From a virus, in the IMG/VR virus record IMGVR_UViG_3300044622_000669, positions 1-21,925 of that record: DNA of 21,925 nt, one strand, 5' to 3'. Under the pieces are notes generated by a model that did no database searches, had not been told where the DNA came from, and worked only from the letters and a program-made list of their open reading frames with translations. The position numbers and the translations under genes were made by a program. Of the stretch, positions 4,543 through 14,960 are shown one piece after another (position 1 is the stretch's first letter; each line of letters opens with the position of its first letter).

Positions 4543-4749
4543 CTATCGATGCCTGTATGTCGGGTCGATCTGGTGACACCTGCAGATGTCGTCGATCGCG
4601 ATCTCAGAGCCGCAGGTGACGCAGGTGGCTGAGTGTTTGATCGATGGCCTGAAGTCGATGCCGTGTGTGAGATAGGTGTGCAGTGATAGATCGGTCGATC
4701 GGCGTGTGGTGTGCTCACAGAATGAGCAGGTGTGCAGTGCGGTGCTCAT
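4543..4749 (-). CDS. Small zinc-finger-like protein
   Basis: A 68-residue protein with two possible metal sites. The first is C8-x2-C11 followed by H24 and H29 (CSFCEHTTRRSTDLSLHTYL), close to a C2H2 finger. The second is C43-x2-C46 then C56 and C58 (CVTCGSEIAIDDICRC), a zinc-ribbon-like arrangement. Such proteins usually bind nucleic acid or other proteins. It starts within the stop of cassette B as ATGA, so it is co-transcribed from the cassette B promoter. The target is unknown. Confidence 0.68.
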   Translation of the reverse strand: MSTALHTCSFCEHTTRRSTDLSLHTYLTHGIDFRPSIKHSATCVTCGSEIAIDDICRCHQIDPTYRHR

Positions 4750-5012
4750 GATGCCACCTGCTGATCGTAGATGCGATACTTCGTGGCCTTGCCGTTGATG
4801 CGGTAGGTGTTCCCATCAGAGCAGGTGATCAGGTAGTACTTGCCGACCACATCAGTACCGCCGAAGGCTATTCTGTCTCGCTGCTCTACTGAGACCACTG
4901 TCGTCAGTCGATCTACTGCGTCGAGTGTGTAGTGCATGTGGTCGCCTAGCAGACCGATGACATCACCAGCCTGCAGATGCTTCGCTGTCTTCTTACCGAT
5001 CACCGTGTTCAT
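4746..5012 (-). CDS. Cassette B small protein (MNTVIGKK family)
   Basis: An 88-residue paralogue of the protein at 5707-5976, about half identical to it. Both share the N-terminus MNTVIGKK, a GDV.GL.G motif, the SVEQ strand, the exact block ITCSDGNTY and the C-terminus QVAS. Alternation of hydrophobic and polar residues suggests a small beta-barrel. The start is fixed by AAGGGGAAAAT just upstream and by agreement with the paralogue; a longer in-frame start at 5045 lies in the leader hairpin. It has its own promoter and 5' hairpin, and its stop overlaps the zinc-finger gene. I do not recognise the family; an RNA- or DNA-binding role would be speculation. Confidence 0.75.
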   Translation of the reverse strand: MNTVIGKKTAKHLQAGDVIGLLGDHMHYTLDAVDRLTTVVSVEQRDRIAFGGTDVVGKYYLITCSDGNTYRINGKATKYRIYDQQVAS

Positions 5013-5029
5013 ATTTTCCCCTTCGTCTG

Positions 5030-5045
5030 ATGGCCATCTGGCCAT
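5030..5045 (-). promoter_or_regulatory. 5'-terminal hairpin of cassette B mRNA
   Basis: On the minus strand ATGGCC-AGAT-GGCCAT is a perfect 6-bp stem with an AGAU loop. It begins exactly 7 bases after the -10 box, which places it at the first base of the transcript. It ends 17 bases before the ATG. The same position, loop and stem length recur in cassette A with different stem bases. It could be a 5' mRNA stabiliser, a translational operator or a repressor site. Confidence 0.65.
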
Positions 5046-5052
5046 GACTCAA

Positions 5053-5081
5053 ATAGTACCCATCTGGCTGACTGGTTGCAA
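5053..5081 (-). promoter_or_regulatory. Sigma70-type promoter of cassette B
   Basis: The -35 box is TTGCAA (5081-5076), the spacer is 17 bases and the -10 box is TACTAT (5058-5053). The promoter sits within and just after the stop of the preceding gene (stop at 5087-5085). Predicted initiation about 7 bases after the -10 box falls at the first base of the hairpin. Confidence 0.75.
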
Positions 5082-5084
5082 GCA

Positions 5085-5354
5085 TCATTTCGGCATCTCA
5101 GCGATGGTGGTCGAGTGGGTCGGCGCAGCCGCTCGCGCTATGGCGAACCGCAGGTCTGTGGCCAGATCGTTCTGACCGATGTGGTCGAGATAGGCCAGAG
5201 CGTTCTCGATGGTCTTGATCGTCTGCCTGACAGTCTGCTGTGATGATCGTCGGTGGCGTGCGATGACCCTGACCGCGACGGTCAGGCACTCGCGTCTGAC
5301 TGACTGCAGGTGCTGCTGCTCGATGCGGTCGTCGGTGAGATCGTAGAGATACAT
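5085..5354 (-). CDS. Hypothetical helical protein
   Basis: An 89-residue, largely helical protein, rich in Arg, Gln and Asp (LTDDRIEQQHLQSVRRECLTVAV, QTVRQTIKTIENALAYLDHIGQNDLATDLRFAIARA). There is no membrane segment or metal site. The ATG at 5354 overlaps the previous stop as TGATG, so it follows the HTH gene in the cassette A operon. Its 3' end abuts the -35 box of cassette B. The function is unknown. Confidence 0.62.
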   Translation of the reverse strand: MYLYDLTDDRIEQQHLQSVRRECLTVAVRVIARHRRSSQQTVRQTIKTIENALAYLDHIGQNDLATDLRFAIARAAAPTHSTTIAEMPK

Positions 5355-5710
5355 CAGTGACCCCTGTCTGCTCGTGGGTCACGCACTTCCCAGACACCGC
5401 GCTGCACCTTGCGGAAGCGGTCGGTGTGGTTGTTGATGAGTCGATGTGCACGCTCAGATGTGACACCGAGTGTGGCTGCCAGATCGTGCTGTGTGATGTG
5501 TGCAAAGAGATTCGCTGTGCACCACTGCAGCATCGTCTGCTCGATGATCTCGATGGTCTTCTCGATGTCAGGGTTGGCTGTCGCTGCTGTCAGCATCTGC
5601 TCGATGTCTGACGATGGCACTGCCTGCCTGATGCTCATAGGTACAGTCGCGACCCACATAGGTCGGCCGTACTCGACGATCGCTGTCTCGATGACCTGAT
5701 GTGGTGTCAT
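5354..5710 (-). CDS. Winged-helix DNA-binding protein, putative
   Basis: A 118-residue protein. Residues 72-110 read as a helix-turn-helix with wing: ITQHDLAATLGVTSERAHRL is a helix-turn-recognition-helix and RKVQRGVWEVRD a beta wing. Residues 1-70 are helical and could dimerise. It is translationally coupled to the cassette A protein (ATGA overlap) and shares its promoter, so it is a natural candidate regulator of the two cassettes or of phage timing. The DNA-binding call rests on the HTH pattern; the target is inference. Confidence 0.65.
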   Translation of the reverse strand: MTPHQVIETAIVEYGRPMWVATVPMSIRQAVPSSDIEQMLTAATANPDIEKTIEIIEQTMLQWCTANLFAHITQHDLAATLGVTSERAHRLINNHTDRFRKVQRGVWEVRDPRADRGH

Positions 5711-5976
5711 GATGCCACCTGCGCATCGAAGATGAAGTACTCGCGAGCACTGTTGCTGATGGCGTAGGTGTTACCGTCTGAGCATGTGATGTCATAGATC
5801 TTGGTGGTAAGCCAAGTGCCAGCGAAAGGCATCTCGCACCCAGACTGCTCTACTGAGAGCACTGTCACCAGACGCTCATCATGCTCATCTGTGAAGTTCA
5901 GCCAGTTGCCGATCAGACCGACAACATCACCAGACTGAATCTGGTTCACTTTTTTCTTACCGATCACCGTGTTCAT
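5707..5976 (-). CDS. Cassette A small protein (MNTVIGKK family)
   Basis: An 89-residue protein paralogous to the one at 4746-5012. It shows the same order of elements: MNTVIGKK, a SGDVVGLIGN turn, the strand VTVLSVEQ, the exact ITCSDGNTY block and the C-terminal QVAS. A small beta-rich fold is likely. It is the first gene of a short operon (this gene, an HTH protein, an 89-residue protein), driven by the promoter at 6020-6048 through a leader with a 5' hairpin and AAGGGGAAAAT ribosome-binding site. Even the bases around the following ATGA junction match cassette B, so the cassettes arose by duplication. The function is unknown. Confidence 0.75.
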   Translation of the reverse strand: MNTVIGKKKVNQIQSGDVVGLIGNWLNFTDEHDERLVTVLSVEQSGCEMPFAGTWLTTKIYDITCSDGNTYAISNSAREYFIFDAQVAS

Positions 5977-5996
5977 ATTTTCCCCTTATTGATCTG

Positions 5997-6012
5997 GTAG
6001 GCATCTGCCTAC
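5997..6012 (-). promoter_or_regulatory. 5'-terminal hairpin of cassette A mRNA
   Basis: On the minus strand GTAGGC-AGAT-GCCTAC forms a perfect 6-bp stem with an AGAU loop, starting 7 bases after the -10 box and ending 20 bases before the ATG. Compared with cassette B the stem bases change in a compensated way while the loop is unchanged. As DNA it is also a perfect palindrome and could be an operator overlapping +1. Confidence 0.65.
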
Positions 6013-6019
6013 AAGAACA

Positions 6020-6048
6020 ACAATAGCAGATCGGCCGACTGATTGCAA
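6020..6048 (-). promoter_or_regulatory. Sigma70-type promoter of cassette A
   Basis: The -35 box TTGCAA (6048-6043), a 17-base spacer and the -10 box TATTGT (6025-6020) match the layout of the cassette B promoter. It lies in the longest gene-free stretch of the window (5977-6186), between the secreted lysozyme and cassette A. Confidence 0.75.
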
Positions 6049-6075: not shown

Positions 6076-6186
6076 TCGGCCAGATGCCTACAAGATCGGC
6101 TGCAGGTCATCAGCGCGTTTGCGTCACCGATATGACCATCTGCCTGAGATGCCAGATATCGATCACCACAGAGCGTCACAGATGCC

Positions 6187-13574: not shown

Positions 13575-14960
13575 TTATCTCTTTCGTTGTGACTGACTTT
13601 GGCTGCCGCTCGAAATAGGAACTGGCAGCACGAATGTTAGTGCAGTCACAGCGATCACCGCACGACGCTGACCGACGCTGATAGTGCTTCCTGCAGGCAC
13701 ATATGAAGAGAGTGCATCACTGGCGAAGATATCGACAGCAGACTCGAACGATTCCTTTACATCGTCAGACGCATCACTGATGATGTCACCTATCTCAGCG
13801 ACCTGCTCATCGGTCAGCATCTCGAAGGCTGCAGAGTCTGTGATGGCCGCTATGTCTGCCACTGTGATCTGATCAGGTAACACATCGGCCAGACCTGCGA
13901 CTGCATTAGATAGGTCAGATAGTTCCTGTATCAGATCGACGGTTGTCTCGGTGACTGGTGTCGTCTCGACTGTGGTATCGACCGCAGGCACAGTCGTCTC
14001 GATCACAGGGGTTGTGGTAGTAGTCGCAACTGCAGTCGTAGAAGGTGCAAAACTCGAAGTGGTGCTGATGACAGGCACAGTCGTCTCTGGTGCAGTGGTA
14101 GGCGGCCATGTGGTACTCGTCTCGATCGGTGTCTCTGTAGTGGTGGTCGATGGTACAGCAGGTGGCTCGGTAGTGGTAGTCGATGTCTGTGTCGGTACAG
14201 GTGCTGCAGTAGTCGTGGTACTCGTGGTGGTACTCGATGTGGTCACAGGTATCTGTGATGTAGTCACATAGATAGTCGATGATGTGGTGGTACTCGATGT
14301 GGTGGTACTCGATGTGGTGGTACTCGATGTGGTGGTGTCTGGCACTGTGGTATCTGGCATCGTCGTATCAGGCACAGTCGTATCAGGCACAGTCGTATCA
14401 GGCACAGTCGTATCAGGCACAGTCGTATCTGGTATCGGCTCACTGGTAAATGACTCAGGCTGCACGATCGCCCAACCCTGACCATCGATGTTCCATGCAA
14501 GCATGAAGCAAGTACCACCGCCATTCTCATATACCCACGCATCGAGACTCTGCACACCAGCATCTATATCGAGCAGACCTGACTCAGTAGCAGAGCAACC
14601 CTGATCTACCCACGAACCGAACTGATGTGTACCGATAGTGACCATGCCACCATCATCAGACGCAAGCCAGAACTCGATCGTGTCGTGCTCTGGTATCTGT
14701 ATCGCACCTGTGTAGTGCAGCATAAAGAGATCAGTACCACACTCACCGAACTGCTGCTCTGGTGTATCCCATGTGGCATTGATGAAGTCGAGTGTGCCCT
14801 GACCGCACACAGGGTACTGATCATCTGACATGACAGGTGGTATCTCATCGATGCTGTACCCAGTGACAGCGAGACCTGTGACTACATCAGCAGATGCAGG
14901 TGCTACCCATGCGAGTGCAGCGACTGGCGCAAATATCAGCCAACGAGAAGTGCGAGCCAC
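13575..14960 (-). CDS. Secreted PA14-like protein with Thr/Pro stalk and C-terminal anchor
   Basis: A 461-residue protein with a Sec signal peptide (hydrophobic 8-20, likely cut after PASA, residue 24). Residues 26-172 are PA14-like: FMLHYTGAIQIPE, the hallmark FWLASDDGGMVTIG (97-110), and GGTCFMLAWNI, with paired Cys that could form disulphides. Residues 177-345 are a Thr/Pro/Ser stalk of PDTTV and TTTSS pentapeptides. Then comes a helical acidic region (345-420), and near the end one hydrophobic span (429-445) followed by a basic tail (RKR). PA14 domains bind glycans. This looks like a host-surface protein made from the phage, or a virion adhesin. It lies between the fibre and holin genes. 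Confidence 0.8.
   Translation of the reverse strand: MARTSRWLIFAPVAALAWVAPASADVVTGLAVTGYSIDEIPPVMSDDQYPVCGQGTLDFINATWDTPEQQFGECGTDLFMLHYTGAIQIPEHDTIEFWLASDDGGMVTIGTHQFGSWVDQGCSATESGLLDIDAGVQSLDAWVYENGGGTCFMLAWNIDGQGWAIVQPESFTSEPIPDTTVPDTTVPDTTVPDTTVPDTTMPDTTVPDTTTSSTTTSSTTTSSTTTSSTIYVTTSQIPVTTSSTTTSTTTTAAPVPTQTSTTTTEPPAVPSTTTTETPIETSTTWPPTTAPETTVPVISTTSSFAPSTTAVATTTTTPVIETTVPAVDTTVETTPVTETTVDLIQELSDLSNAVAGLADVLPDQITVADIAAITDSAAFEMLTDEQVAEIGDIISDASDDVKESFESAVDIFASDALSSYVPAGSTISVGQRRAVIAVTALTFVLPVPISSGSQSQSQRKR
14279..14432 (-). repeat. Two adjacent 15-bp tandem repeat arrays
   Basis: Within the PA14-stalk gene, 14366-14425 is four identical 15-base units, flanked by diverged units out to 14336-14432 and encoding PDTTV. 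Next to it, 14281-14336 is three identical 15-base units plus a partial, encoding SSTTT. The unit length keeps the frame, so copy-number change by slippage would only lengthen or shorten the stalk. Confidence 0.85.

Follow-up and report, generated by a model that had tools for sequence, protein, structure and literature searches.

Two matched cassettes in an actinophage sequence

The DNA analysed here (the window) is IMG/VR virus record IMGVR_UViG_3300044622_000669, a stretch of 21,925 nt in which two cassettes, A and B, lie on the minus strand (Table 1). Since the window carries a WhiB gene and the cultured relatives of its tape measure are mostly Arthrobacter, Microbacterium, Gordonia and Curtobacterium phages, the host of the virus is almost certainly an actinobacterium. 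In agreement with the original prediction, we found at both cassettes a matched promoter, a 7-nt gap, a 6-bp stem with an AGAT loop, a Shine–Dalgarno (SD) sequence and a gene for an MNTVIGKK protein. The two cassettes, separated by an 89-aa gene and an HTH-like gene, represent a duplication that has diverged; the DNA copies are 77% and 71% identical, and proteins A and B share 53% identity.

Table 1. Positions of the promoter, hairpin and gene features of cassettes A and B in the window.
Feature	Position	Strand	Sequence and remarks
−35 box, promoter A	5081-5076	(-)	TTGCAA; TTGCAA/TTTGCA-type −35 recurrent in related phages
−10 box, promoter A	5058-5053	(-)	TACTAT; 17-nt spacer from −35
5'-terminal hairpin A	5045-5030	(-)	ATGGCC AGAT GGCCAT; 7 nt after −10; folding energy −8.7 kcal/mol; predicted +1 A 5045, first stem base (position rule from related promoters)
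Shine–Dalgarno, gene A	5023-5018	(-)	AAGGGG
Gene A	about 4746..5012, ATG 5012	(-)	88-aa MNTVIGKK protein, all-beta model
Gene between cassettes	5085..5354	(-)	89 aa; in sister phage L015 the homologue is preceded by a separate hairpin promoter
HTH-like gene, downstream of B	5354..5710	(-)	118 aa; HTH match sub-threshold
Gene B	about 5707..5976, ATG 5976	(-)	89-aa MNTVIGKK protein, paralogue of A
Shine–Dalgarno, gene B	5987-5982	(-)	AAGGGG
5'-terminal hairpin B	6012-5997	(-)	GTAGGC AGAT GCCTAC; 7 nt after −10; folding energy −9.0 kcal/mol; predicted +1 G 6012, first stem base
−10 box, promoter B	6025-6020	(-)	TATTGT; 17-nt spacer from −35
−35 box, promoter B	6048-6043	(-)	TTGCAA

Neither protein A nor protein B matches any Pfam or PHROG family. 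Members of the MNTVIGKK family are 82-100 aa long and share an invariant CSDGNTY motif. The model of the gene A protein (pLDDT 84) gave only weak barrel matches in a fold search (KOW/SH3-type barrels of EF-P, L2 and Mfd; none at E<=0.001). The HTH-like gene has full-length relatives in about 50 related contigs. Searches with the A protein, the HTH protein and one further early protein found no close relatives among cultured phages, and no relatives were found in GTDB genomes. The left arm of hairpin A (ATGGCC, window 5030-5045) also provides an in-frame upstream ATG, from which a longer, 99-aa form of protein A is possible: MARWPSDEGENMNTVIGKK.

Perfect inverted repeats with a 6-bp stem and a 4-nt loop occur only 13 times in the 21.9-kb window. 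Four pairs of boxes fit the pattern TTGNNN-N16-18-TANNNT, and a stem follows two of these, promoters A and B, at an offset of 7 in both cases. Neither promoter is picked up by a general σ70 scan, since that scan scores matches to TTGACA.

A single contig (L003 and L013) is 99.7% identical to the window and adds no information. A VPDTT-type repeat gene (window 14281-14402) gives extra gapped matches between the window and L013, and its repeat number may be changing. The sister phage L015 is about 77% identical to the window, with a rearranged gene order, and has two hairpin promoters, before its single MNTVIGKK gene and before the 89-aa gene. Its stems are ATAGCC AAAT GGCTAT (6 nt after TAGATT) and GTGGCC AGAT GGCTAC (6 nt after TACATT). 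At the four sites of the window and L015, all 24 pair cells are paired (100%), both sides have changed in three of the six pairs and the loop is kept in one orientation, whereas pairing drops to 17-50% in slid controls. The AGAT loop is not conserved beyond these two close phages. When the whole of IMG/VR was scanned with a pattern in which only the 3' arm was fixed, the window lineage and L015 matched at 6/6 pairs and there were no other real matches; the remainder were unrelated chance matches in coding sequence, with pairing at 1-4 of 6 positions.

Hairpin promoters recur before unrelated genes

Homologues of the HTH gene were found at 79 loci. From these loci and the MNTVIGKK relatives we listed 50 hairpin sites, about 45 of them convincing, on about 41 contigs, each with a −10 box, a gap of 5-8 nt, a stem, an SD sequence and an open reading frame. 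The −35 box in these related phages is most often TTGCAA, TTGCAT or TTTCAT, and some promoters of the family are without a strong hairpin (L065 3674, L068 3198 and L009 4797). The listed sites precede many unrelated genes and have unrelated stem sequences. A covariance model of the wider family (E <= 0.5) gave 44 matches in 43 related sources, nearly all before early genes, and none in 628 kb of outgroups. It did not match the sites of the window and L015 themselves, which are tied to the wider family by architecture and homologous operons, not by sequence. Rfam (release 15) gave no match above the gathering score for the window and 12 related loci. In L038, L060, L070 and L080, orthologous promoters upstream of the KQVRWKCAICDHG gene carry a 5-bp stem (ATCGG/CCGAT) with an A-rich loop of 9-10 nt; these hairpins were missed by the strict scan.

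The distribution of the sites bears on the earlier idea of a special regulatory pair, in which the hairpins would be the target of the MNTVIGKK proteins or of the HTH protein. No HTH homologue was detected in L005 and L009, yet hairpins are present there, and most hairpin contigs have no MNTVIGKK homologue in the sequence examined, absences that are soft in that the contigs are fragments. Among such fragments, L004, L005, L006 and L008 have an MNTVIGKK gene that is not immediately preceded by a hairpin promoter. Since hairpins precede many unrelated genes and occur without either homologue, the proposed pair is neither needed nor supported, and both proteins were rejected as hairpin partners. 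What is retained of the two-site interpretation is selection on an RNA hairpin, and this selection extends far more widely than the pair in the window.

The stem lies at the predicted transcription start

We computed folding energies over 22-nt windows for 121 promoters picked hairpin-blind. Folding peaks 2-8 nt after the −10 box (−2.8 kcal/mol, compared with −1.45 kcal/mol for shuffled sequence), and upstream the energy is close to that of shuffled sequence. At offsets 3-8 we counted 27 unbulged stems, against about 2.5 expected. When the bases after the −10 box are counted from 0, base 5 is a pyrimidine in 27/27 hairpin promoters, base 6 is a purine (A or G) in 24/27 and base 7 is T in 24/27. 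This pyrimidine-purine pattern at bases 5-6 places the predicted +1 at the first stem bases; the predicted first nucleotide is usually A after a pyrimidine, and usually stem base one or two. At the two window promoters the purine (A 5045, G 6012) is one base further than in related promoters and is still the first stem base. As expected of a 5'-terminal stabiliser, the stem is therefore at or near the predicted 5' end.

At offsets of 5-7 we counted 47 distinct hairpin sites, compared with 3-18 in shifted windows. Outgroup viral contigs (452 kb) gave two sites at these offsets, one of them a true family member, three cultured actinophages gave none, and T7 and lambda together gave two. Hairpins in outgroup phages are thus at chance level.

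Pairing is kept while stem sequence varies

Promoters chosen as orthologous by their gene retain a hairpin, and its stem differs from one to the next. In one such family the stems are TATCAGG/CCTGATA (L009), TGAGGC/GCCTCA (L073) and ATCAGCC/GGTTGAT (L069), with TGGGG/CCCCA (L056) and TCAGG/CCTGA (L036) at other promoters of the same family. Promoters of MNTVIGKK genes have GTAGGC/GCCTAC (window B), TTATCAGCAAGA/TCTTGCTGGTAA (L007) and TGGGG/CCCCA (L012, L055). Across 18 aligned sites, 20 cells show double changes and the covariation score is 0.62, compared with 0.30 for shuffled (0/500) and at most 0.16 for slid alignments; pairing was considered in choosing this set, a bias that only the hairpin-blind and ortholog tests avoid.

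Once all types of mismatch were permitted, G-T/T-G combinations (18-21) exceeded A-C/C-A combinations (6), with a p-value of 0.006-0.02 that is indicative only, the sites being partly related by descent. Shifted positions showed no such excess. A DNA site is expected to show no strand preference for G-T over A-C, and the excess of G-U wobbles over A-C mismatches therefore points to RNA rather than DNA. Pairing rather than sequence is kept, as in a 5'-terminal stabiliser. The original prediction of selection on a 5'-end RNA hairpin accordingly withstood a covariation check in related phages, where stem changes preserve pairing and homologous and orthologous promoters retain it via double changes and G-U pairs. 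Overall, these sequence comparisons support selection on an RNA hairpin right at the mRNA 5' end. An intrinsic terminator or attenuator was considered and rejected: no U run follows the stem, the sequence continuing with CAGA.. or GTTCAAG.. and then the SD sequence, and none is listed at the sites.

A probable role in 5'-end protection

By analogy with known 5' stem-loops, the hairpin probably shields the mRNA 5' end from decay and thereby prolongs the phage message. RNA polymerase would begin on the first base of the inverted repeat or beside it, and the nascent mRNA would fold into a stem-loop of 5-8 bp that leaves almost no 5' nucleotide unpaired; the ribosome-binding site comes next. RNA pyrophosphohydrolase and the 5'-end-sensing RNase E and RNase J should act poorly on such a paired 5' triphosphate end, and the message would be longer-lived. 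Pairing alone would matter, which would be why the stem sequence drifts freely with compensation. The observations behind this reading are the position of the element, its recurrence, its covariation and its independence from gene identity.

An element of identical geometry is DrrS (MTS1338) of Mycobacterium tuberculosis, also a short stem-loop in an actinobacterial setting, in which a 5-bp 5' stem has A+1 as its first base, at least two added unpaired 5' nucleotides are destabilising, and transfer of the stem-loop to lacZ raises expression threefold, so that it is portable to another transcript (PMC5360333). DrrS is, however, one bacterial small RNA, whereas the phage element is the recurrent start of many mRNAs; no sequence relation between them is shown. 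In E. coli, bla mRNA is stabilised by a 5' hairpin, which hinders RppH, and stem-loops at the very 5' end of ompA and papA shield from 5'-dependent decay; protection by 5' hairpins is known from B. subtilis too (PMC3997798). These E. coli examples, ompA and papA, are single host genes, whereas the phages have a compact promoter-hairpin-SD cassette before unrelated genes. The T7 phi10 leader and other phage 5' structures likewise start an mRNA with a stem-loop before the SD sequence, although the T7 case involves a phage polymerase and a fixed initial sequence, and the actinophage contigs have host-type promoters and freely varying stems. Against protection, esxB 5' hairpins did not stabilise a reporter in M. 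smegmatis (the leader was tested as its cleaved form), and genome-wide in this species 5' folding and half-life are uncorrelated (PMC11728522). The family promoters named above that have no strong hairpin, and the covariance model that does not recover the window's own sites, also count against this reading.

The open-licence literature searched described no such element in actinophages. Individual genes with 5' stem-loops are known; in this one phage group the stem-loops seem to be a default design rule, in which compensatory change keeps hairpins at many promoters. From this rule transcription starts can be predicted to one or two bases, and the promoter, hairpin and SD sequence together make a compact, portable cassette. 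Whether 5'-end decay limits gene expression in actinobacterial phages is directly testable, and the published evidence conflicts (DrrS for, esxB against). More tentatively, and with slightly less than even confidence, we suggest that in an entire clade of uncultured actinophages a large part of the transcripts begin with a base-paired +1, a sequence-free, promoter-encoded RNA 'cap', which may help them to resist 5'-end-dependent decay in the host or RNA-targeting defence.

Alternative readings of the hairpin

What tells against a sequence-free shield is that A-rich loops are frequent (AAAA, AAATA) and many stems begin AUC, so that recognition by a protein is possible. The hairpin might then be bound by an RNA-binding regulator, from the phage or its host, that controls translation or decay and reads the shape, the AUC start and the A-rich loop. 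Its nearness to the SD sequence would suit such a regulator, as would the weak likeness of the gene A model to KOW/SH3-like RNA- and RNA polymerase-binding barrels. We nevertheless regard this as unlikely, since the stem sequence is free, the loops vary (AGAT, GATC, ACC, TAAAGAG) and no one gene partner is shared by every hairpin contig: an HTH homologue is not detectable in L005 and L009, and most contigs are without an MNTVIGKK gene.

It is less likely again, and to our minds improbable, that phage repressors bind the inverted repeats as DNA operators at +1. Operators at this position are common, and the spacers of the window and L015, together with upstream positions 6076-6091, hold related GGC-N4-GCC-like words, as tandem operators would. 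However, the stems are unrelated among promoters of one phage and differ at orthologous promoters, G-T mismatches exceed A-C, the register to the predicted +1 is fixed and the loop is kept in one orientation at the four close sites; CAGATG is also a common word in the window genome (63 copies). A dimeric-repressor dyad was rejected on the unrelated stems and the G-T excess, and the pair of DNA operators first offered as the alternative is largely excluded for the hairpins. Related GGC/GCC-ATCT/AGAT-GCC/GGC words lie in promoter spacers at window 5059-5075 and 6026-6042, upstream of B at window 6076-6097, and at L015 11359-11376 and 12140-12157; elsewhere in the family, too, there are spacers with dyads (L051 GGGTGTgccaACACCC). 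These spacer and upstream repeats could be true DNA operators beside the RNA hairpin.

Finally, a role at initiation, in which early RNA folding aids promoter escape or prevents backtracking or R-loops and does not affect decay, would fit the strict position at the predicted start equally well but is very improbable, as the stem folds only once its 3' arm leaves the polymerase, which is after escape, and the literature searched holds no precedent.

Structures near the Shine–Dalgarno sequence

Some leaders show further structure close to the SD sequence. In many relatives, among them L032, L037, L062, L065 and L067, the SD sequence lies 20-24 nt downstream of the −10 box inside ACCCTGAGGAGGGA, which can itself fold into a 4-bp hairpin (CCCU/AGGG). 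Folding shows another peak at that position, and this hairpin could be a second, translational, control element. In the short leaders of L063 (3090) and L074 (6691), the 5' stem seems to be paired with CCCTGA of the SD leader (TCAAGG AAAA CCCTGA), so that a single structure might serve as the mRNA cap and also contact the SD sequence.
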